This document shows, piece after piece, positions 35,337 to 52,395 of a DNA stretch of 64,000 nucleotides (the stretch's first letter is position 1; each line of letters starts with the position of its first letter). A program made the position numbers and the translations under genes. This stretch comes from Saururus chinensis (lineage: Eukaryota > Streptophyta > Magnoliopsida > Piperales > Saururaceae): assembly GCA_035235625.1 (NCBI GenBank), contig CP141145.1:23190563-23254562 (forward strand), read 5' to 3'. The notes beneath the pieces are model-generated. The model was not told the DNA's origin, searched no databases, and worked only from the letters and a program-made list of their open reading frames with translations.

Positions 35337-36058
35337 ATGGCCGCCGCCGCTGCCCGGTCCGCTTTCCGCACGTCCTCCCTCCGCGGCATGGCGGCGAGAG
35401 TGACCGCGCAGGTCAAACCCGCTCGCTCCCCATTCCGTATATCAGATCAGAAGCCCCTCGCCCTTCGCATTTTCAGGTTCACGCCATTCGCTTTTTTATT
35501 TTCTTGTTCCTTCTGCATAAGGTGTCTGACTGCGTAACGGTTTCCTGTTTGTGGTGCTGTTTCGCGTTTCTTCCCAGGTCTCCCGTCTCCTTGAGCGCCT
35601 GCGTGGAGTCCCTACTGCCCCTGCACAGCGCCACCGCCTCCTGCCGGTTGACCTCGATGCTCTCCGCATCCCGTGGGGCTTATGGCTGGCTTTCCGAAGG
35701 TGTCTTTTTCTTTGTTTCGTTTTATTCGTGAGTTCATATTTCAGTTAGTAATTGACATTTCGTGGTTGATCGATGTTTGGAACTTTGATCAGCATGCAAA
35801 AAGTGCGGACTTGATTATTGATGATATTTCGGTCCATTGGAAGATTGATGTTGTTAAATTGAGGATTGTTCTTGTAATTGATATTGCCTGTTTACTGGAT
35901 TTACATTTACAATTATTATTATTTTTTGGATGCATTAGTACATAAGCTATGAACTTAACATTAATGGTGGGACTCGGAAGTTTCATCTCATTTCAATCTC
36001 ATTGAGTTCATTTCGGTTCAATTTGGGTACATTTTAGTGTCTCTATGCGTTAGCACTT

Positions 36059-36094
<36 letters not shown>

Positions 36095-37455
36095 GACTCA
36101 TATATGATGTACCTTCTATCTATATAGAAGCCATTGGTTTGAGAAAAAATGAATTGTGGCCTTTTGTTCGTTTTTTAATGAAACAGGATGTAGATCAACA
36201 TTTTAACGTTTCAAGGTTCGGAAGTTTCAGTTAACGTCTTGCAGCAGCAAGGCAAATATTATATACCCCTTAATTATTGATAGATAACTGAGCTATGTGT
36301 CTTGATAATATTAGTAAAACTTAGGGGCATTTCTGGATCTAGAAGAAGTTTCATATTACTTCTTTCTACAAACACTGCAGTTGCCAAGTTAGCTATGTTT
36401 CAGTGGTTAAACCTTATTTTGGATAAGTTATAAATTTTTGTCCTCGTTCTAAAGCATCAGAACCACAAAGCTCTTTTTCTTAACTTAGTAATTCATCAAT
36501 TCTTTGCTCTGGCTGGGTACATTTTTGAAATGGTTTTTTGTCAGCTAAGAATTCTCTTGGGACGTCTCACATTTTCCCTTTCTGCATAGACTATTAGATA
36601 CAGGTAAAGGGCTTCCTCATGGTTTGCTAAAATAAATGTCTAGCTACGTGGTTGATATTGTGGCATACTTGCAACTAAAAACATCATTTGGCCATGTTGA
36701 CCCATTTTTGGGCAATTCATTAATTTTTATATATTTTACTGGAACAGGCATGAAGAATGGGACTTCCTAACTGTCCATTTAGGTGATATATCAGATGCCA
36801 TTTTTGGTGTTGATTGAAGTTGATGGTATCTAGCGATGAAGTACTTGTACTTTAGTGCCAAGTTTGAATTTTTTCAGATTTATATGTTCTTCCCTATAAG
36901 TAAGCGCTCTGAAATGCGGTGCTTCAAAGTCATAGGACCTAGCTTTATTTCTTAGGTATCAAGCACTTGTTATACACAAAAGGTTGGAGAGACATTTATG
37001 TTTTGTAATTTGGGTTAAATCTTGAGATTTTTTTTATTGTTTAACTCTTTCTTTGGAAAGAGAATCTCCCAGATTAGCTACCTTTTTTTTATGTGTTTCA
37101 CATTTTGTTGATTTTATAGAGGGGGATCCTATTGGTTAGATGTTAGATAAGTTGGAAATTTTTTGGGCAAGATCTGAAATCTCATATATCAGTTGTGTCC
37201 TGATTGACAGAAAATAAGACATCCTGGAAATATTGGGAATCTTGTTGAAGATGTTGGAGAAGATTGGTTTTTATGGATGATATAAATATACATAACTATA
37301 ATGCTTACCTTGGTGAGGTCAATCGTGCATACATACATACACATGCAACTATATAAGGTTTTGAACGTTTATATTATATACTGAATAATTCCCTCATCGT
37401 GTTATTGCTCCTTTTCCTTTAATGGATCAGGGATAAGCTTCATCTTACCGAGCTA

Positions 37456-37493
<38 letters not shown>

Positions 37494-38255
37494 GTTGATT
37501 ATATAGTGCTGAATATGTGCATTAGAGGAGGACTTGAGTTGAATATACTCAAGAGTAGAAAAATAGCTGCCTTACATAAGGAGGTAAGGAATATGATAAC
37601 TACAAATATGTATATGTACATATACACATACATATGCATATACATATACTGATGGGGATTATGTAATTACAGGTGAGATCTGAGATGACTTTGAGATCTT
37701 CCTGAGAAATGAGAAGTAGACACGGGAAGATCTTTTTGAGTTTGAGCAATTCATCTGTTCTCCCAGCTTTTATTTTGGCCTCTTTGGGAAACAAAGATCT
37801 CAGTGAGATGTCTGGAGATGAAATTCCATAGTATATGGATATTGAGCTCATAGTTAATTAATGAGTCATTGGACTTCGGGGTTATTCTCACAAAGTTCTG
37901 GTTTAAATTTGATTGTCAAGTACATTAGATGCTTAAATGCAATATGAGATACAAACTTCATTTTCCCTGGTGACTTTTCATGACTTTTTCATCATGATTG
38001 GAGCTAATACATATACCATTGTTAAAAAATCAACTATTTTGGTCTCTACCATAATGGACTGTATTTTCTTAAACGGTTTTGTCAAGGAAAATTCTGAGGT
38101 TTGTTGATCATTTACGCTTCCACCTTTTTGAGTAGTGCTTGTAATAGTTGGACTTGGAAGTTGTAAGCCTTCTCCCTCATAGTTATGTATTATTCTTATG
38201 GCAATAGCATTAATTTTGTTTTTGCATTCAATCAGCTCGAAACGATGATGTGTGA
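35337..38255 (+). CDS. NFD6: NUCLEAR FUSION DEFECTIVE 6-like protein, main splice form (3 exons)
   Basis: The predicted coding exons are 35337-35476, 35578-35699 and 38236-38255, all with GT/AG borders and consistent phase. They give 93 residues. The N-terminus ([20 protein letters not shown]) is rich in A, R and S without acidic residues, as in a mitochondrial presequence. The conserved core is [17 protein letters not shown] (end of exon 1) and [20 protein letters not shown] plus LTSMLSAS and YGWLSE (exon 2). The last exon adds ARNDDV and stop. This architecture matches the plant NFD6 family, small mitochondrial proteins; the Arabidopsis gene is required for nuclear fusion in the female gametophyte and at fertilisation. 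The start is the first ATG with good context after a GC-rich 5' region. The 2.5 kb intron 2 carries other potential exons. Promoter and 5' UTR lie at about 35110-35336, and the transcript probably extends to about 40450. Confidence 0.85.
36061..36090. repeat. (CT)n microsatellite in intron 2 of the NFD6-like gene
   Basis: About 29 bases of uninterrupted CT. Confidence 0.95.
36748..36817 (+). other. Possible cassette exon in NFD6-like intron 2
   Basis: A pyrimidine-containing tract ends GGAACAG at 36747. The following 70 bases read, in the frame set by exon 1 (phase 2), [19 protein letters not shown], then GVD and stop. Joined to exon 2 (phase 1) it would instead give only a seven-residue tail. 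The 22-residue peptide looks protein-like, but neither its use nor its conservation can be shown here. Confidence 0.35.
37460..37490. repeat. (TA)n microsatellite in intron 2
   Basis: About 30 bases of TA. A related TACATA-rich stretch is at 37608-37650. Confidence 0.95.
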
Positions 38256-39346
38256 CGACTACATGGCAGACTGAAGCAAATTTTGGTATGAGACTGTCAA
38301 TCGTAGGGGTTGATCTCTAGGAAGACATTCCCGAGTCATGTTTGTTAAAGAACTAACAGTTAAGATTTTACTGGCCGTACTATTTGTTTTACCTGATTTG
38401 TTTACAGAGGAGACATGAGAGTACTGTATTTTGATTGATAAATAATTGACGATCCTTTGTATATTAAGTTCAAGAAATTTCATTTCTAAAATCCTATGAG
38501 GAAATCTTGTACATTTTTTGTCTTGAGAAATCTAAAGTTCTCCTGGAGGAGTCATAACATTCCCATTATTTAATCTCAATTATTTTACTGCAGATCCCTA
38601 GTTCTCTTAAATGAGGACTACGTCATATTCTATCCGTGCAGATGGCCGTTCTTTATTTGACCCTAGATAGATGTGGAAAATATGTTTGTCTTTGACCTTG
38701 TGGTTTAGGAGCTTCATTGTCTATGCGTATAACATTTAACACTATGTTGTAGCCATGTTATGGGAAATGTGCTCTGCAGCTGAAATCCTACTGTGCAGAG
38801 AGATTTGACTTTTAAGACAGAACATTGTGTTTTATCTTGCCAATAACTCCATCGTACATAGGAGTCGTGCTGGTTACATCCATCTTATCACATCAAGATC
38901 CTGATATTTGACTTTGTTATGAAAGATGCGTATAGAGCTTCTATCTTGCTGTTGTCACGTTTCTCATCTATCTTCCATCTTATCATTTTGAAAACTTGTT
39001 TGTGGAGCTTACTGGAAGGAACCTTATGGTCTTTGCACTTTTGATCCATTCGAGCTGTGCTTAGCTTTATATTGTTTATTATTATGAAAGTTGTTTCGGG
39101 GGTCCATCTATAAAAAACAAAGCCTTTATAATAACACTAATGGACTACACGTATTTTCTTATTGCTCCATTTACGAAAGATTTTCTACTTTGTTCTGTAT
39201 GGGTTTTTTTAATACGGAGTTTAGCACCAAATAATGGCATTAAACATGCTTTCTTTGTTCTATATATGACTCCTATTTAAGTGAATATTACTACTCAACT
39301 AATTATTTATTACTAGCAAAGATCCTAATTCTCTTCATTCAATCAG

Positions 39347-39366
39347 CTCGCACTGATGGTGTATGA
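39347..39366 (+). CDS. NFD6: Alternative terminal exon of the NFD6-like gene
   Basis: 'cattcaatcag|ctcg' precedes this exon exactly as it precedes exon 3 at 38236. In the same phase it encodes ARTDGV and stop, against ARNDDV for exon 3. The similarity continues into the 3' UTR (gatggtgtatgatgaag against gatgatgtgtgacgact). The two exons look like a tandem duplication of the terminal exon 1.1 kb apart. Either could end the protein. Confidence 0.65.
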
Positions 39367-40294
39367 TGAAGATCCAAAGGATACGGGTGAAGTTTGTGCA
39401 AAGAACTTACCCAGGTTTAGAAGTTGGTGGCCGACAGGATCTGCTTAGAACAAAAACTCAGTGAGCAACCTGATAATCATTTGTTATTGGATCTTTATGT
39501 CCTGAAACATGTTCATATCTATGATCAAACTGTTGAATGTGCATAAGTTGGGCACTGTTTTTTCTGTTCCGAAACGTGTTGAATCCTTGGAGCTTTTAAG
39601 TTGGTGGTCAATACATGAGGTGCTCAAGTCTGGTTGATGGGAGGGATCTTTTCTTGTTAGCCTTTCCTATGTTGTACATTCTTTCAGTCTTATTCATACA
39701 ATAAATTCTTTCCTAAGAATAAAATAGAACTTAATTTCTTGTTGTGGAAGTTTCACTTAGTCATCTTATTTATCATCACTTGTGAAAGGTGGACTGAAGC
39801 TTGTTTAGTACAAGCAGACATCACTTGGTGGTAAGAGAAATTAAACTAGATTAATTGATAGGAATTTCATCTCGGTTTCTCTGTTTATGCATTCACGGGC
39901 ATTCACTACCATATGGTTGGCGTTTAGCAAACCAGTGTAATGAATTGCCACTTGCTGTCAAATTCTAAATCTTGTACATAAGTTTGAATCGTTATTTATT
40001 TTGGTTATGCATTTTTTCCTGATTGAAGTAAAGAATGTGCACAAAGTTAAATGTGTTAGGTCAGTGATTCACCTTGAAATTAATGAGACAACTTTCTGAA
40101 AGCACGCATTGGTAAGGTAATAAACAACAAAATGAGAATAGATATTTATAAAATTGTCAAAGTTTTCTTAGTCATGGATCCAATTTATTAATTTTCCTGA
40201 TAAATAATTTATGAGGTGTGCCTGCTTTTTCTAGTTTAATTAACATTTTGTACCTGTGCCTGCTTTTTCTGCATCTTCTCTATTCCAGATGATC

Positions 40295-40450
40295 AACATG
40301 TCCAAGGCAATATTATTTTTCAATATTTGGATGGGGATATGGGAGTACCAACGTAATTTTGAAGATTTGAAGTTGCTCATTTATTGTGAATTAACATTTG
40401 TATGACGATTGTTTTGGATGTTTTGAACTAATAATGAGAAGAATTTGTTT
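40295..40450 (+). other. Probable final 3' UTR exon of the NFD6-like gene
   Basis: 'cttctctattccag|atgatcaac' is a good acceptor within the GC-richer end of the locus. The sequence after it has no long frame. The 3' end of the transcript is estimated, not read. Confidence 0.35.
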
Positions 40451-41033
40451 TCATACTTTTCGGTCATTTTCTTTTCACAATTTCGTCAAGATTACTGGAA
40501 CTTTGCATGACGTCTGACTTGCAATTAAATCTGTCACCCCCTGTTAATTGGTTGAGCTTGGGTGTCGTATTTGTGATTTTAGTTGTAGATGGATGATCTA
40601 AAATTTGCTAGAAGCTATGGGTGCTATGTACTTTGGATGATGAGCCGTTGGTACGGGATAGTTACTGCTGATGTCTTTTTTAATTAGAAAATATTAGTAG
40701 ATGGTGCTGAGAAATAAACTAGTTCATAGCAGTAGCACTAAAGACAGGCGCATCTTTACAAGTTCGAGTCTATTCCAATTACTTTCATGCCCCGAGGTAA
40801 AGTTAGCTTTTCCATGTGTTTTATTTTGCCCGGTACATGCTTTTTAAATACTAACACGGATACTAATGTAAGCTTGCCGGCTCTTTTGTGCCCGCCATTC
40901 TGGTATACAACATGACAAATAAAAGGGTAAATTTTATGGTAGGAGAGAGAATAATAAAGTGAATTGGATTAAACACAATCTTATTGAAAAAGTTAATTAA
41001 GGTATCACCTTTTTGCCTCTTTTTCAAGTCAAG
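40451..41033. other. Intergenic downstream of the NFD6-like gene
   Basis: No gene or repeat was recognised. Confidence 0.45.
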
Positions 41034-41213
41034 CATCTCATGTGCCCATGGAAGGTGGTATCGATATTTGTATCTGTATCAATGACTTTTGATAAGAGTA
41101 AGGGTCAAGGATACAATTGGTCTCATCTCATGTGCCCATGGAAGGTGGTATCGATATTTGTATATGTATCAATGACTTTTGATAGGAGTAAGGGTCAAGG
41201 ATGCAATTGGTCT
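41034..41213. repeat. 90-bp tandem duplication
   Basis: Two adjacent copies (41034-41123, 41124-41213) beginning 'catctcatgtgcccatgg' differ at only a few bases, so the duplication is recent. The period is 30 codons, so a 70-residue frame runs through it, with no recognised homology. Confidence 0.95.
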
Positions 41214-41464
41214 AATATATATTAAAAAAAATTAAAATTAAAAAGACAGCTATTCTCTTTGAAAGGCATGATACATGAATAAAGTTATAATTAAATATAG
41301 AACACTAACAATAGTAACACGTTGACTTGAGGAGGGGTGTGCGTGATTTTTAGATGAGGGCCTCTTTATAAGATTATTAGCTAAAAGGAACTAATGTTGG
41401 CTAATTTTTTGTGCAGTATATTAGGTTAATCATAATTACATATTGAAAATATGAGCCCTATAAA

Positions 41465-41690
41465 TGATTACTCTTGTCTTATATTAAGTGTTTTAAAATT
41501 AATTTATTTTAAAATAAAAAAGATACTTTATATGAGACTTGAATATTAAGTAGAAGCGGATAATATAGATGTGTAATTAAATGCATAGGCATGAAGTACT
41601 ATATTTATGAAATTTTTTTTATCTAAATTGTATGTATGTACCCTTGTTGATCTCATATAATTGTAAAAAAATAATAATAATAGAAATAAC
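41465..41690. mobile_element. Stowaway-like MITE, copy b (relative of 34428-34640)
   Basis: It shares the core 'tattaagtgttttaaaattaatttattttaaa', 'aaatgcataggcatgaagtactatatt' and '..cttgttgatctcatataatt' with copy a. The ends are diverged. Confidence 0.6.
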
Positions 41691-41843
41691 TGTACAATAA
41701 TACAATGAGAACATTGTCAATAAACTTCTAAAAATGTGCTGAGCCTTTTTTGGGCAATTTTTTATATGAAAATAGGTCAAATTTATTGTATATTGCTATG
41801 TATCTATTATATATACAATACAATTGATATGCTCAAAACATTT

Positions 41844-42115
41844 CCTTAATCGTTGTGGAAGGTGTTCAACCCCACTCTATCATATTAGTAATGACCGATA
41901 TGGGTATGTATCAATTGACATGCACCTCTATAGACATAACATTCTATGAATTTATTGTGCATCGATATGTATTGGTTTTATCGATACAATATATTCAATA
42001 TATTGCAAATGTATCCTTAATCCTTGTAGAAGGTGCTCCACTTTTCTGTACAATACCAGCAATGACTGATATAAGTATCTATTAGTCAATATGCACCTAT
42101 ATTGATTGGTAAGGT
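41844..42115. repeat. Diverged 171-bp tandem duplication
   Basis: 'ccttaatcgttgtggaaggtgttc...taatgaccgatatgggtatgtatc...acatgcacctctat' recurs as 'ccttaatccttgtagaaggtgctcc...caatgactgatataagtatctatt...atatgcacctatat'. Confidence 0.8.
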
Positions 42116-42289
42116 CTTCCATACATGTGTCACATAGTGTAGATAAACCCAAAAGTACCCTTATTTACCATGATTTTATGAGGTGATATTTCACACTCTT
42201 GAAGTCGAATTCGCGTGTTCTTATTGACATTGAATTCATCTCAATGAGCCTTATTAAATAAGTGGGGATGTGTGGACCCTTGTACTTTC

Positions 42290-42960
42290 ACCCGAGCATT
42301 GCAATTGATTATTGCATTTTATGCATTATCACAAGTTAGCCCCCTTGCAATTTTGACACTATATACTATTATAAATTTAATATCATTATATTATCATAAT
42401 TTTTACCCATCACAATTTAGACCTATCACATATTATAAACTTATATCATCACAATTTGGTCATTATATACCATCACAATTTAGGCACTATATGTTGTTGC
42501 ATTATCTACTATCATATATTATTGTAATTTAGGTATCATATATTGTCATAATCTACCCACCACAATTTAGACCCCATTGCATATCAAAGACTTGTACCAT
42601 CGCAATTTTAATACCATATACCATTACAATTTAAGTACCATATGCTATTGCAATATCTACAATCATAATTTAAACCCTATCACAATTTAGACACCATATA
42701 CATCATAATTTTGGCACCATATATTGTTACAATCTACTCATTGCAATACCTCCTACTTATTGCAATTTAGACCACATTGTCTATTAAATACGTATAACAT
42801 CACAATTTAGATACTATATACCATTGAAATTTAAGCACTATATGTTATTGTAATATCTACCATTGCGATTTAGACACCTATATTGTCATAATTTCGATGC
42901 CATGTACTATTGCAAACTACTAATCATAATATTTACCCATTGTAATTTAGACTCCATCCA
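42290..42960. repeat. AT-rich minisatellite, CACAATTTAG units
   Basis: About 670 bp are composed of degenerate 20-30 bp units around CACAATTTAGRC and ACYATATACCATT, with a higher-order alternation of 'atctac' spacers. At least fifteen 'caatttag'-type cores are visible. There is no coding sense. Confidence 0.85.
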
Positions 42961-43345
42961 ATCTAGATAGCGGTGCAATAGGGAGACGGGAGGGTGGTTC
43001 ATAGAGGGAGAGGAGCATGCAGAGGAGGCAAGAAGGGAGGAGGAGAAGGCAATGCCTCTTGGAGGAGGCAGTGCTGACAGGTAGAGGAGTAAGCGATAAC
43101 ATGCAAAGAAGCAAGTGGTGATGATGCCTAGAGGAGGAGGCAACGACAACAACCAGGGGAGAAAGGCATTGAAGGATGAACAAGAGGGAGGAAGAGGAGA
43201 GGGAGTAGGGGTTTAGCAACACATGGAGGAGGCAACAATATGTAGAGGAGAAAACAACAATGGGTGGAGGAGGAGGAGAGTGGCACAGAGAGTGAGTCGA
43301 TAGTGGTTGGAGAAGGCAAAAGATGAAGGAGGAAGGCATTTTGGT
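42961..43345. repeat. G/A-skewed GGAGG-rich tract
   Basis: About 380 bp of strongly purine-biased plus strand with many GGAGG and GGAGGAGG runs. The minus-strand open frames across it are S/P/L low-complexity and not supported as genes. Confidence 0.75.
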
Positions 43346-44096
43346 AAAAATGTCCCCACTTTCTTTATCTTTTCTTACCTAAAAATTACCAATAGCGTTG
43401 TTGTTTGATTTGGATAACTTGTTTGTCTCAAAGCCCACCCTATTAATCCTTCTAAAAAACAACAGAGTTTTACCCAATGGATGCCATTTCCACAAACTAC
43501 AAATTTTCTTGCATGAGTGAATCTTAGCAAGTAAGAATATAAAAATGAATAATTTACAAAAATGACTTTGAAATATAGAATATCACCAATTCTAGTGTAA
43601 TTCTAAAAGTGGGCCAGCACACATGTGAACTCCCATACATACGAGGAAATGTCTAAAGTATCCCTCTACTATTTTTTTCTTTTTTACTCCACCAACCCAC
43701 CATCTTTCCTTTTCTAGCGGCTCTAGGTGCATTGCCTCAACCACCGGATTTGATTTCAGCTCTGCTGCATTAGCCATCACCTCTGCTTGGTTGCATCAGC
43801 CACCGGCTCTTTTTCCTCCACCTCGGCTCTAAAAGTATTCCCTCCTCTCTTTCCTCCTCTTCTCGTCCTCCCCATCCTTCGTCGCCTCCTCTTCATCATT
43901 TTTGGAATCTAACAAGACCAACCACAAACTAGCCAATAGAGCCATTACTTTTTTTCTCTACAAGCTCAAATCTTAAAAATGAACCCATAAACATGTTCAA
44001 CTACTCAAACTAAGAGTGAGTTTTATTTTAAATTCATTCTAAGCTTTTTCCAACGTTGAACTAACCTATACTTCCATAAATAGAAGTGATAAGTAT
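43346..44096. other. Intergenic, no gene recognised
   Basis: It contains a TC-rich stretch at 43800-43900 and a short weak frame at 43592-43780. Nothing was recognised. Confidence 0.45.
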
Positions 44097-44214
44097 AATT
44101 TAGACATTATTTTATCCCTATTTACTTTAGTTTTTTGTCTTGTTTAGGAGTTAATATAACAAACAATTAAAAATTAAGGCTAATAAGGTTAGAAAGGACT
44201 TGTGTGACATTTTG

Positions 44215-47044
44215 TAATGACCATGAATTTTTGGTATGATTTCTTGACTCTAATAAAACTATTTTATGAGTTTTTAATTATTTTAAGTTATTCAGAGGTA
44301 TATTTTTGGAGATTTTTTATATGGGTATGATAGACTTAGTGAGACGAGCATAACAAGCCTAAGAATGCAAGAAACGGAGGTCGGGAGCGAAAGTTATGAC
44401 CTCAGAAAATGTGCCACATGGGCGAGACCCACTTTAAAAAGTGTGAGATAACCTACTCATGTTGGGTTTAGTTTCGAATGGCTTGTCAATACGAGTCCAT
44501 CGGCACTAAGAATGCGCGATTTCGACTTCGGGATAAAAAGTTATCGTATTTTAAAGTTAGATTAATATTTAATTAAAATAATATTAAAAAATAAGAAACA
44601 AACAAAATAGCTGGCTAGCAGCTTGCATCGAGCCGAGCCAAACCATGGCGTAAGTCGTGGCTTGTGAGCCGCGCCAAGTGGAATGACGTGCGTATGCACA
44701 ACATGTGTCGGATGCGTCGCAAGTCTATACAAACCGACGCGACACGCAAACAAACATGTGGCGTCGCCGTGCGGTTCGCATGCGCCGTGCCAATGCATGA
44801 GCCGCACACGCATTAAGTTTGGCAGTGCCACGGATTTAGCCAATAAACGCGTGATGCATGTTGTGCGCACTTATGCGCAATGCGTGTCGCTCGCACGTAT
44901 GCACGACGCTTGTGGCGCACATTATGCACGACATGTGTCATGCGCACGTGCATGTGCATGCGACATTCCGTCGGCTTGCGAGGTTTTCCTTGAAATTCTC
45001 ATTTCCATTCATTCTTCTGGATAAGTTTATTGGGTGATTCTAAGTCTATTTTCTTCCGTTCAAAAAGTGTTCTTAGCTAATTCCAAGGTGTTCTATGCAA
45101 TTGAAGCATTTATTCCTCGAGTTAGGGAACCTATATGGGGAAACACCTTAGCGAAAGGGGAGGTTCTGTCTGCCTCCTACAGGCGCGTGAAGTGTAAAGT
45201 GTCTCCGAGTAAGGGGAGATTTTGTCCGTCGCCTATGGGCGTATTGTGAGAAAAGTGTCCTGGGTTAAGGGGAGGTTCTATCCGTAGCCTACAAGCATGG
45301 AAAGAGAAAAGTGTTCCGGGTTAAGGGGAGGTTCTGTCCATAGCCTATGGGCACAAAAAGAGTTTCTGGAGTCGATCTGCGTCAGTTTTCTTACGTTCAA
45401 GAGGCTTTCTTACCTAAATTGAGCGTGTCGGACATCATAGTGGGGTTATTTTCCTGATTGGAGACCTCCAGAACCCTAGAAGTGGAAATCCAATTTTGTG
45501 GTATCCGGTTTATCGATTTTGAACTCACGCGGAGAGCGAGGTAGGGGCTTTTATCCTTTCTTATGGCATGAATATAAATTTGGTTGTGTTTTGAACTTAT
45601 TATTTATATGAGTCTCGTATGTTATGCATTAGAGATTACTTTCAAGGTATGATTTATGATTTCTGCACATATATTCGATTAGTCGAATGATTAGCCACTG
45701 GAAGCGGACATGTTTTATATACTACATGCTTTACGATTGGCTCATATATCATAGTTTGATCGAATGTTTATCCAAGGATTTTGATATAAATTATACACGT
45801 TGGAGCGTGTGAGATAGAGACAAACTAGCTTCTCCATTGTTTTCATTGCGAATGAATATAATATGTTTGAAAGATGGTATTAGAGGACTCATCCTTGTTG
45901 AAAGAAGGATTCTCAAAGTTATTTTTGAAATGACGTATAAGCATGGTGATTGAGTTACTAAAGTGGGACAAAGAAGGGGTAACTATCTCATTGGAATGAA
46001 TGATCAACCTTGCCTTTGTAGTCATTGATAGCGACGCTCCTATGGCTTGTAGAGGCGGAGCTAGGGTTTTTAAAAAAATAAACATTGGGATAGAATATTT
46101 TAAAAGAAAATAACTCTTTTTGATGTCTGGGAACTCTAGGATATTTTGATTGAGTCTGGGACTCAAGATAATGAGTCTGTGACTCAAGCATATGAGTCTG
46201 GGACTCAAGAGTGTTTTGGTTATCCAGAGCTATTGTTGGGCACCCCGATAGAGCTTTGTTGACTAGTTAAGGGCACAATTAATCCGGTTTGGAATCGGAT
46301 GCATGATACCTATTTTTGCTTGGTGAGCCCCTAACAAAAGGCAAGACCCCTGATTAGCCCCTAACAAAGGGCTCATATCAAGGCTACGTGCTCTATGGTA
46401 GAGAGTATCATGGGAAGACTCTCTACCCTCTAAATCCCGATGCTCAATGAGCACGGGTGGCTCTTATATCCACAAGCACAAATGTTTTGAGATGATGTGT
46501 AGAGGAGTAAGAGGTCATTGCTTTATACCCGCAAAAAATTCTTATTAATAATATATGTCTGGGACATTAGTAGTAAGCCGTGAGAGCTTACAAACCCCAG
46601 AAGCATCTTCGATATGTAGGAAGAAGAACTAGGGGTGGTTTTGGGTGAGAGGCACACCCTGTTTTTATGTAAAATATTATATATGATATGTGATGTGAAA
46701 CTGCCATGTGTTTATTCATGCCTGATAGTATAAATTCCCCTACTAAGTATTTTAAAATACTCACCACCCCCAGACTTTGTAGGACTCGACGAAGCTTAGT
46801 GTGCGGGTAGAAGAGCCTACTACAAGTTTTATTGATGTAATTTTGAGGATTTCAACCGCACCGAAACAAGTAAGAACTCTCCTTATTATTGTTTTCTTAT
46901 GTGTTTGTACACGGACCGTGGTTCCTGGGGAAATAATTATTATATTATCACATAAGGCGAGCAGCTCTAGTTGCGGGCCCGGGTAAACTCTGATATTTTT
47001 GTGAAAAGAAATTTTATATGCTTCTAAAATCCTGGGGCGTGACA
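44215..47044 (+). mobile_element. Solo LTR, Ty3/Gypsy (Tekay/Del-like), 2.8 kb
   Basis: It begins TGTAATGACCATGAATTTTTGG and ends CCTGGGGCGTGACA. It is flanked by a perfect 5-bp duplication CATTT (44210-44214, 47045-47049) inside an older LTR. It contains a CpG-dense block at 44600-44970 and three 'aaggggaggttctgtc' repeats at 45150-45350. No internal region remains. Confidence 0.92.
45150..45350. repeat. Tandem repeats inside the solo LTR
   Basis: Units of about 55 bp contain 'taaggggaggttctgtcc.tagcctatgggc...gtgttccggg'. A diverged form occurs in the older LTR at 22000-22290. Confidence 0.8.
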
Positions 47045-48259
47045 CATTTTAAATCAAATTGGCTAACATGTAAATTTTCTATGCAGTTGTAGTGTAGCTG
47101 ATCAATTGGCCTCCCACGACAATTGATCTACCATGAAGAAATAAAAAATCAAAGTCACTTTGCTTGATCTATCGGCCATGGAGGGTGATAAACCAGTTGA
47201 ACATGTAGTTTCCTAGTTGAAGCTGCTTTTGATTCATTTTTCAACTAGACCTCTTTGACCGGCTCTTATACTTATATAAACACCTATAGGATTCAAAATT
47301 AGAGGTTTCCAACCTATTTTCTAAAGAGAAAAAGAGAAGAGAAGGTGAAGGAACATTCAAGAACTTTCATGAAGATTCAGGAGCTTCTTTCAGCCATGCA
47401 AGGCAAGATTTATTATACTTTGGAATTGATGAAGCCATAGATGAGTTTCAATTTCTTTTTCTTTTGATTTAGATCTCAATTGTGAAGTATGACGATAGTA
47501 TAACAAGTGCTTCATTTTTAATGAAATGGTTTTTTATGTTAATTTAATGCTATGTTGATGTATTGGTCTTGTTGGATGATAGATCCATGTGGTTTTGATA
47601 CTCACGTCCATTATATTTTTTGCGATTTAGATGAGATCGTTATGTAATAGGCTTTGATGTTCATGTGATTAATGAATTAGATGATTTATGGTAGGAAATT
47701 GATATTCATACTCCACTTTCTTTACACCAAAAGCCTTACTGCACCTCTGATTGGATAGAGAAGGTAAGTCACACTTGATGACATGGAGATTCACTTTTCC
47801 CTATCCAATCAAAGGTGGAGTAAAGCTTTTGATGTAGAGAAAGTGGAGTAGGAATGTTAGCTTCTTTTATGCAAAGATTAGACAAGTCATGTCTATTGGT
47901 TGATTATGTGTAAATGATTTCTTCTATGTTAAAAATAATTCATGCCTTGGAGTTAATTACTGATTTTCTCTAAAGTAATTCTAGCTTGTAGATGAGAATA
48001 CTTGTCCATACTCATACTTGATTTTGAATAGAGATTAAGGGGTTATTATGATTCTATCGGTGGATTCAATTTCCTAAGTTGTTGTCATCATATTGCTCTT
48101 TTGCTTAGTTTAAGTTGGTTTACTAGGTTACTTCCTTGTTTAATTTCAATTTGAGCTCTTTTAGTTCTCAATCATCCACAAATCCTTCTCTTAGATTTGG
48201 TAATAATTTAATCTATCCTTGATGTTCGACAACCCTTAATACATTATAAACGATCAAGC

Positions 48260-49770
48260 ACTCGCAATAACTGGTAGACAATAGTCAACAGTTAACAACC
48301 GATAGTCAACAAAGAAATTTATAGTAGTAAAGTGGTAGTAAGACAACATTTTGAGTAGCAATATCTATCTCAATAAAGCAAATAGATAAAAAGAAAAATA
48401 AATGATAATTTAAACACACAACTGTTGGCTATCAACTTTTGACTATTGACTTTAGTTGTCATGTATTAGAAAGGGTTTGCCGGTGTTGGAGAAGGAGGTT
48501 TCTAGTGTTGAATAAGGAGGTCTTTGATAGGGCTTTCAATGGGTATCCGGAATTCGTGTTCGGGTATTTTATAAACTAGTAACATGTAAAATATGAGGGT
48601 AATTTTACCTGCCCATTTATTAAGAGGGTAGGGCATGAGTAACCCATTGTCCATACCCATTACTCATCACTTGTTACCTTGCTCATATACATAGCATGCT
48701 CATTACCCAAATTTAATATGCAATTACCCATATGATCCATTTAGCCCATCTGCTCTCATTTGACCCATGACGCCCATCTTATGAACAAATATTCTTGTGA
48801 TAAAATTTATGTAAGTATTTTCTATCAAATTCTAATTCTTATTGCTCATTGGTAGTAGGGTTTGACCTAATGCTACAAACATTTAAATTTTCAGTAATTA
48901 TTTCATTTATGTGTTATAATTCCTTGGTCATAGACCAAAGTCGGCCATGTATTGGTTGTTGTTAATCCTTCCAAAGAGGTCTCTTTATATGGAAGTGACA
49001 TAGTTGTTGCTTACATGCAGAAGCTTATGGACAACCCTCATGTTTATGCAGTTGCATATGCACCCTTGCCTTCAATGAGAATGTCTTGCATATAGAAGAA
49101 TTTGTATTTTCATTGGATAAGATTCATAATTAGTTGACTTTGGCATAGTTAAGAAATGCTGTGTTATGAATCATTATACATTTGGATTAAACATGTTATC
49201 ATAATATGCTTGTATAGATATACATTGGATAGACTTTTGTTTACAGTAGGTTATTTCTTCATTTATGTTTTATTGTTTAGTATTTTCTTTGTTTATTATT
49301 TGTTTGCCATTTACCTACTACCCACCCATTTTCCCGATGGGTAATGGGTAGGATAAGGGTAATGAATGGGGAAATGGGTAATGGGTAGGGTACGCATAAA
49401 GTTTTAGGAAACAAGTATGGTTGCGGGTAAAGCTTTACCTGACCCATACCCTACCCATCAACAACCCTAGTCTTTGGTGCCAGAGAAGTGATAGGTCACC
49501 AATGGAAGACTCTATATCATCCAACGCCAATGACAACCATCTTCTTTGATGTCAACGACCCCTTTTACTAATATGTGACTACTAATAGTCGACAATTGCA
49601 TGCTCAAATTTTTTTATTTTACTATTTATATATTTGGTTTGTTGAGATAGTTCAATGTAAATTTTGAGGGGATATCTCCACTTGGAATGTTATCTTACTG
49701 CCCCTTTACTACAATAAATATGCATGTCGACTGCCAATTATCAATTGACAGTTACTGTAAGCGCCATTTA
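48260..49770. mobile_element. Long-TIR (Mutator-like or foldback) element, split by a hAT MITE
   Basis: About 130 bp at 48265-48400 pairs in inverted orientation with 49625-49760. For example, 'tagtagtaaagtggtagtaagacaacatt' pairs with the complement of 'aatgttatcttactgcccctttactacaat'. There is no transposase. The outer ends and target duplication could not be fixed. Confidence 0.6.
48528..49469. mobile_element. Non-autonomous hAT element
   Basis: The ends TAGGGCTTTCAATGGGTA and TACCCATCAACAACCCTA are inverted relatives. They are flanked by GTCTTTGA and GTCTTTGG, an 8-bp target duplication with one mismatch. Subterminal 'ATGGGTA' strings are repeated in opposite orientation at both ends (48600-48730, 49320-49460). 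The AT-rich 0.9 kb body has no transposase. Confidence 0.85.
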
Positions 49771-49916
49771 TGGAAGTACAAAGTTTGTTCGGCATTGGAA
49801 CAAACATAGAATGAAGTTAAAATAAATCTCACTCTTGGTTTTGTGTAGTTGAACATGTCTATGGGTCCATGTTTTAAGATTTGAACTTATAGAGAAAAAA
49901 TGGCTATGCTAGCTAG

Positions 49917-52395
49917 TTTATAAGATCTCTTAATTCTTTCCTTATAATTATGTGTTGCTTGTTTGCTGGTTTGATTTAATTATTGAGTTTATGGGATAGT
50001 TAATTATCAATTTCTTAAAGTTTAATTTCGTTTTTAAAATTTTTAGTGTCAAACTTGATTTACCCAATTTTTTATCAATTTAATGACATTTTCTCTTAAT
50101 TAAGGGTGTAGATCCCACTATGGGCCCCATGTCCGTTTGTGAGAGTGTGTAACCTATTTTGAACCTGAAGCTTTTAGTACTTTGTTCAAGTGGGTTTGGG
50201 TATGGTTAAATTCATTTTTAAATAAAAAATACCCTTAATTAGCCACTTAGGGTATTTACCCTATTTTTCAGCCCAACAATTATTATTTCTAGCCCAAAAC
50301 CCTTACTATATAAAGAAAAATGCTAGCCATTTTCCAAATGGGGAAGGGCTATGTATAAGGGAGGAAGTGCTATGTAGAAAGGAGGAAGTGCTCTACCCCT
50401 ATTTCCCAATGGAGAAACTTTTATTAAGGTGTGTTTTCTTCTCTTAATCACTCATAATATTTTGATTTTGGTCTTAATCACTTCTATCTTCATTTCTCCT
50501 AATTAATTCTTGATTTTATTTTATCAAAATTTTATTTTTAATTTTGATTTAGAACCCTAATTAGGTGATTTTTTGTTTTTAACCTAAGGATGACCTAGAT
50601 CTACCTTCTTTCAAGTTGATTTCTATTAGCTAATTTTAATTTGGTTTAACTAAAACCCTAATTTTTGGGCAGGATTTCTGGAGGTTGAGGATCGTTCCAA
50701 GGATTGAAAGACTTCTTAGAGGTAAGAGTCTTTTACCTTGAGTGTTTTTTCTTCATTGGAATGCATGATTATAGGTGTATTTGAATTCTTACTTCATTTT
50801 GATGTTTAATGGTGATTTGTTGAAAGCATAAGATTTATGGTTATTTTCATACAATTAAGCATGAAAATGATTAGATCCATCATGTTCTAGTCTTAGATTT
50901 TGATTATATCATGTTCTATTATCATTTTTGAATTTATATGAAATTTGGTATAAATTTTGAGAGGTTGAAGACGAACCAAAAAAGTGGACTATTCCGACCG
51001 ATCAAATGGGCTAACAGCCATTCAAATAACAAGCCAGTCGAATAGGCTGTATGGTCATTCGAATGGCTAGGTGTTCAAATGGCTTGCTAGGGCATTCGAA
51101 GGGCCAAATAGCATAATGGTGTTTTAAGCTATTTTTGTGGATTTTTGGCCATTTCATGTTCTTTTCTCTTGATTTTAATTTTCTATGACTATGATGAGTT
51201 ATGATTAACTATAAATGCCACTTAATTTCATGCGAATTTTTTTTAAATTATGATTTAACTTAAGCATGATGATGATCATACTTGTCTAGGGTTAGCATGA
51301 TGTTCTACTTGTTTTAAATTTGTATTTCGATCAAGCCCTTCTTCAGCAGTGAGATCGGGGTCGTTCGGACTTGGTAAAGGTTGTCGCGGCACCTGTAGTA
51401 GGACATAGGACTTATCGCGAGTGATTAATGTTCTACATGTTTTAGCTTAAGTATGAACACTACTACATATATACACTCTTACATATGCTTATATGATTTT
51501 ATTTGTCATAAATAGACCATGTTTCATATACATAAGGATTGATTAGAGTATGTTTACATAAACTTGTACTCATTTAATATTTTCTCACATATGTATCATG
51601 TCACATGCATCATAAAAATGCCTTATAAGTAATGATTAATCGATTGGATGTCATTGGTTACTAGATTAACTGCCCGAGGTTTATCGAATTGATTTTATGT
51701 CTAGAAGGATAGGATTTTTGTTTTACATCCCTTTGAGTATGAGGTGGCTCCCTAAGTTGAGAAGAGCGGATTTGCTATGTGAGAAATTGACGTATTTTCT
51801 GGACCATGAGAATTGAGGCTAGTATGTGTGTGTGCACTGGCTTACCAAGGGCTGCTCAAATTTTTCCTTTTTAGGAATTCAGACTTTCCCCACAAGGGAT
51901 TGTCCCGGGTGAGCAGGGGGGTACCTTCTGAGTTATTGAACTTACCCAAACCACTCTAGTTTTCCTTGTTAGGAATTCGAACCTTCTCTGCAAGGGATTG
52001 TCTGGGGTAAGCAGGTTAACTTGTTTTCCTCAATTGTGAGATATTCACCTAGTAGTTGATGCAACTGTATGGATGATAATGTTCATTGACACAAGTTGTG
52101 TAAGGACAATGATGCTTATGTTACACATGGTGTGTATAACATGATTATACTTGAACATGCAGGATGAAATATGATTTGATATAATTTATTATGTAGAGTG
52201 TGTGTATATTGAGATATGATTATACAGGATGTGAATATTAATACTTAATTCATGCAGGATGTGAATGCTATAATGAGATTCATATGATTACATATGATGT
52301 GTATGTGTTATGAACTATGGATGAACGTCTGATGCACATATGGTATAAAAATGTGTTTATGAAATGTTCTTTACATCGTGATGCATAAGTGGCAT
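49917..52395 (+). mobile_element. Truncated LTR of the 16361-type Tekay-like family
   Basis: Read forward it follows the complement of 16930-19376: 'tataagatctcttaattc' at the start, 'gatcccactatgggccccatgt' near 50115, 'agccattttccaaatggggaaggg' near 50325, GTTCGAA-type boxes at 50995-51115, and 'catcgtgatgcataagtg' at the right. About 0.57 kb of the LTR end is missing at the junction with the next element. Confidence 0.75.

Follow-up and report, generated by a model that had tools for sequence, protein, structure and literature searches.

A six-codon terminal exon, apparently duplicated long ago, in a presumed NFD6-like gene of Saururus chinensis

Some of the NFD6-like proteins of plants end in A-x-NDDV, and alternative C-termini are found in the family. 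The gene from which the family takes its name, NUCLEAR FUSION DEFECTIVE 6 (NFD6, AT2G20585), appears in a table of PMC3553062 with three transcript models (.1 to.3). The splicing events reported for Musa beccarii include 103 of the alternative last exon type, 830 that use alternative 3' splice sites and 8 that involve mutually exclusive exons (PMC9941839). Tandem duplication of an exon, leading to mutually exclusive exons, is among the subjects of PMC6071210. A duplicated terminal exon was not the subject of any title or abstract retrieved with NFD6, its locus numbers or the C-terminal strings, and papers listed for duplicated or alternative last exons had nothing on the exon described here.

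Here, the starting point is a gene with two possible last exons. It lies in a window of 64,000 nucleotides, the whole stretch of DNA that was analysed (contig C6, positions 23190563 to 23254562); unless a contig is named, positions are those of the window. Exons 1 and 2, joined to either terminal exon, encode a 93-residue protein that ends in WLSEARNDDV or in WLSEARTDGV (Table 1). Exon 1 is rich in GC, and its product has a basic N-terminus that looks, by eye, like an organelle presequence. The gene is small and nuclear, and its product is probably mitochondrial. The name NFD6-like is that of the initial annotation and is putative: the likeness lies in small size and in the presequence-like N-terminus, and no sequence match obtained here links the protein to NFD6.

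Searches place the gene in a family within its own genome. When the genome (11 contigs, 516 Mb) was searched with the protein, 11 rows were returned, two of them the window gene itself and eight of them belonging to seven paralogous loci, with one row (E 8.8) dropped. The loci kept (two on C1, one on C3, two on C8 and two on C10) have E values between 5e-13 and 0.044; for five of these loci the value is 0.001 or worse, and their matches rest on a common C..S..PLHS core. This core, encoded by exon 2, is common to a multigene family, with 8 invariant columns when aligned with peptides from the seven loci. A Pfam search with the window protein found no families, a PDB sequence search gave one match at E 0.73 (mevalonate kinase) and nothing meaningful, and a PDB search with a profile of the family core gave none. 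In two of the paralogues, translation continued past the donor of exon 2 yields short tails that are similar by eye (TLFCRTCPDR and SLCCTSPGL, each followed by a stop), possibly a retained-intron ending.

Table 1. Features of the gene and of the segment shared with contig C3 (window coordinates; a slash marks a splice junction).
Feature	Position	Strand	Basis
Exon 1, coding part	35337..35476	+	read from sequence; spliced translation open
Exon 2, family core	35578..35699	+	aligned with paralogue peptides; spliced translation open
Candidate further terminal exon, GMKNGTS-stop, in phase	36748..36770	+	site-to-site match with C1 paralogue
Proximal terminal exon, coding part, ARNDDV-stop	38236..38255	+	read from sequence; spliced translation
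Donor-like site TTTTG/gtatga; its use would turn the proximal exon into a cassette of 50 nt	38286..38291	+	simple donor pattern
Segment common to C6 and C3	38790..51805	+ (C3:5179703-5190202, minus)	colinear matches, gaps on both sides
Distal terminal exon, coding part, ARTDGV-stop	39347..39366	+	read from sequence; C3 copy AHTDDV-stop
AATAAA pair (39700, 39718), first downstream of both exons	39700..39723	+	motif scan

The initial annotation had proposed that the last exon was duplicated in tandem, and the core of this proposal stands. Both exons lie where it had placed them, each behind the acceptor cattcaatcag/ctcg, each continuing in phase 1 from exon 2 (which ends at 35699), and with equal coding lengths. 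Spliced translation confirms the endings ARNDDV and ARTDGV, and the gap it gave as about 1.1 kb is 1111 bp from start to start. Duplication of the terminal exon is thus supported by two similar exons with shared phase and two intact acceptors. The resemblance does not, however, continue into the 3' UTR as had been thought; it stops about 3 nt past the stop codon. In register, identity per 20 nt falls from 17/20 (38220) to 13/20 (38240) and 5/20 (38260), with 9/20 (38280) and 4/20 (38300) beyond. The clear part is an ungapped repeat of 34 nt (38225-38258 and 39336-39369) that is 82% identical, with weak gapped similarity across some 50-60 nt upstream of the acceptors. By a crude pyrimidine score, the two acceptors rank high, fifth and ninth of the 14 in-phase short-ORF acceptors on the list for this gene, each level with its neighbours in the ranking. 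What was duplicated is small; the duplication itself looks real and old.

A 29-base pattern, itself derived from the two exons, occurs with at most three mismatches at three places in the 516-Mb genome (its reversed control matches nowhere): the two exons, and a copy of the distal exon on C3. The C3 copy belongs to a colinear, high-identity, non-coding segment, that is, an interchromosomal segmental duplication present in two copies, with substitution divergence of about 4-10% depending on the stretch. The left edge of the segment, at 38790, falls between the two terminal exons. The C3 copy holds the distal exon and the poly(A) region, and is without exons 1 and 2 and the proximal exon; nothing matching exon 1 or 2 lies beside it in the 30 kb of C3 compared, the only such matches elsewhere on C3 being at 2.87 Mb. 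Identity is 95% over window positions 38974-39500, and the distal acceptor is identical in the two copies. Outside C3, the genome has no match to the full length of window positions 39500-41060, and just one fragment of about 130 bp, on C4, resembles part of them at 74%. As the distal exon is present in both segments, it is older than the split between them.

The direction of copying was probably from C6 to C3. At the right end, a dispersed repeat continues across 51805 without a break in C6, as it does in no fewer than 27 of the other matches listed, whereas in C3 it ends at that point. C6 is therefore the likelier donor, although later loss on C3 could leave a break that looks alike. Movement of the distal exon from C3 into C6 was considered, but the continuity of the repeat in C6 speaks against it, as does the fact that neither exon 1 nor exon 2 has a match beside the C3 copy in the 30 kb compared. 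The left flank on C3 resembles locally repeated C3 sequence, and all four of the copies fetched end at the junction. None of these four shows similarity to the initial 2.7 kb of the right flank, as an empty site would; matches farther out on that flank are scattered and lie within a repeat present on the left side too.

Other rearrangements mark the two segments. Window positions 44214-47047 hold a 2.8-kb insertion that is missing from the C3 copy, and pieces of it match other repeats in the C3 stretch. The C3 copy has an insertion of its own of about 0.67 kb (C3:5189472-5190143), which appears by eye to be flanked by repeated CAATAACT and apparently resembles a small transposon with its target-site duplication. 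Adjoining it, C3 lacks about 0.12 kb that the window has at 38860-38973. Direct repeats of 0.7 kb, 90% identical, flank the C3 copy (C3:5195700-5196393 and C3:5178743-5179451).

A copy without its upstream exons is useful, of course, in that it lets changes after the split be assigned to one lineage. The initial annotation had looked to conservation of the ARTDGV frame; on the C3 copy alone, where this could be checked, the frame is open but reads AHTDDV. Parsimony, with the proximal exon as outgroup, gives ARTDDV as the distal exon at the C6/C3 split, followed by D to G in the window and R to H on C3. Between the proximal exon and this ancestral distal exon lie three silent changes and one replacement, against 4.5 silent and 13.5 replacement sites (P about 0.05 under neutrality, in a tiny sample). 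Since the split, the distal codons of the window have undergone a single change, the replacement of D by G, and none that is silent; this gives no indication of strong constraint on ARTDGV. Compared directly with C3, they differ at 2/17 positions, both replacements, and so show no special conservation.

The region around these codons has diverged less from C3 than its surroundings. From 38974 to 39730, a stretch that ends with the poly(A) signals, 31 of 755 positions differ (4.1%). The figure is 92/1314 (7.0%) just downstream of 39730 (P 0.007), and 736/8516 (8.6%) when this downstream stretch is taken together with 41176-42243, 42637-44214 and 47047-51805 (P 3e-6). The zone of low divergence takes in the 373 bp upstream of the distal acceptor (38974-39346; 13/373, P 0.011), which points to a 3' region that is transcribed or constrained throughout rather than to constraint on the distal codons. 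Taken alone, the part that starts at the distal exon and ends at the signals (18/382 against 92/1314, P 0.12) is not significantly lower. Low divergence would be expected if the 3' region were constrained on C6; transcribed DNA that mutates more slowly would have the same effect.

The two endings had also been credited with two different 3' UTRs, which the motifs leave unsupported as stated. A scan of 35700-44000 for AATAAA finds the first one past both exons at 39700, the next at 39718 and more beyond, with no exact match between 38256 and 39700. As the first signal lies past both exons, the two forms may end at a common poly(A) site, which is likelier than a separate 3' UTR for each. Because poly(A) signals in plants are weak and degenerate, a proximal site is conceivable too.

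The explanation favoured here, with about even confidence, is that the last exon was duplicated locally, that exon 2 is spliced to either copy, and that one poly(A) region serves both, with ARNDDV as the main ending and the distal one as minor. A short stretch, made of the 3' splice region and a six-codon last exon, would have been duplicated at the end of the gene long ago, and C6 would later have served as donor of the C3 copy. Exon 2 would be joined to one or the other terminal exon, as alternative acceptors or as alternative last exons, and both forms would probably be polyadenylated in the single region around 39.7 kb. ARNDDV, the proximal ending, is probably ancestral, and the C-terminus of the distal form would have drifted from ARTDDV to ARTDGV. 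Selection would not be needed for so short a duplication to persist at 82% identity.

Other explanations must be weighed against this one. The resemblance might arise by chance, or merely because the two sites share splice signals; the clear likeness does cover only about 34 nt, and 23 of 197 arbitrary pairs of window segments, with repeats unfiltered, reach the same alignment score of 40 or more. Yet none of 1000 Markov shuffles reaches the score of 40 that is the best local alignment of 38100-38400 with 38400-40400. The pair also stands first among 6786 acceptor pairs (117 YAG sites, 35700-41000), with 30/42 bases identical against 24 for the next best, and the identity takes in codons as well as intronic bases beyond the splice signal. 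Chance is thus highly improbable. A greater, though still doubtful, likelihood attaches to the distal copy being a relic. Here, the sole protein would end in ARNDDV, and the 3' UTR would run unspliced from 38256 to about 39.72 kb with a fossil exon inside it. The lack of AATAAA before 39700 fits such a transcript, as does the low divergence of 38974-39346, which would be UTR, and the only change in the window's distal codons since the split from C3 is a replacement. Against a relic stand the distal acceptor, identical in the C6 and C3 copies, and the silent-biased difference from the proximal exon that arose before the split.

The proximal exon might instead be a cassette of 50 nt (38236-38285), joined to a 3' UTR exon that begins at 39347. 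Its inclusion would give ARNDDV and its skipping ARTDGV, with a single 3' end, as the position of the first AATAAA beyond both exons would allow. The donor-like site at 38286 is the only match to a simple donor pattern in 38241-39346, but judged by that pattern it is only moderate, and a cassette seems unlikely. Its stop codon, 30 nt upstream of the junction, would by the usual rule be too near to it to trigger nonsense-mediated decay. The reading in which exon 2 is spliced to either of two duplicated last exons is favoured because the pair is an outlier among acceptor pairs, because both acceptors rank high by the pyrimidine score, because early change between the exons was silent-biased, and because the 3' region has diverged little from C3. 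It is weakened because the distal codons are not specially conserved relative to C3, and because no exon like ARNDDV is found at the seven paralogous loci. When 10 kb of each of these (20 kb for one) was searched for counterparts of ARNDDV and ARTDGV, the best agreed at 17/28 bases, with no outlier, and none was found by motif.

The gene may have still other endings. One of the paralogues on C1 has two candidates for a last exon in phase, GQDDR and GLDSGTI. Of the 117 YAG sites compared from the window, that of GMKNGTS is the best match to GLDSGTI (20/31 identical, next 15); in the reverse ranking, among 472 sites, it is 20 against 18. Alignment of the region with the C1 paralogue is not significant, with 112 of 300 shuffles equally good, and aligning the window intron with this paralogue gives no signal. 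An EGDPIG exon at 37120 was rejected, as its match to GQDDR is weak (17/31, next 15) and does not agree in order with the other pair. Several alternative endings may therefore be a habit of the family, with which the known NFD6-like isoforms and the three AT2G20585 models would fit without proving it. A bolder idea, speculative and rather improbable, is that three or more in-phase mini-exons (GMKNGTS, ARNDDV and ARTDGV) serve a single mitochondrial protein as exchangeable tags at its C-terminus. One of them would have been born by local duplication and would have changed in sequence since the C3 copy, making the birth of a new C-terminus datable.

The isoform that ends in ARTDGV is putative, and the isoform-specific regulation of a mitochondrial fertility factor that the initial annotation proposed is hypothetical. 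Should the distal ending be unused, the locus would be an example of a fossil exon within a 3' UTR that mimics an isoform. What is new here is that C3:5.18-5.19 Mb carries a counterpart of the distal exon and its poly(A) region, as well as of much of the 12 kb that follow. With the alternative last exons and alternative 3' splice sites of plants, the locus shares alternative endings on one upstream donor; it differs from them in that its endings are sequence duplicates of each other, and in that their use is a prediction. With the duplicated exons that become mutually exclusive, it shares local, in-phase duplication of a single exon; those exons are internal, whereas the pair described here is terminal. 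If both endings are used, the locus would be a clean case in which duplication of a six-codon terminal exon gives a small organelle protein two C-termini.
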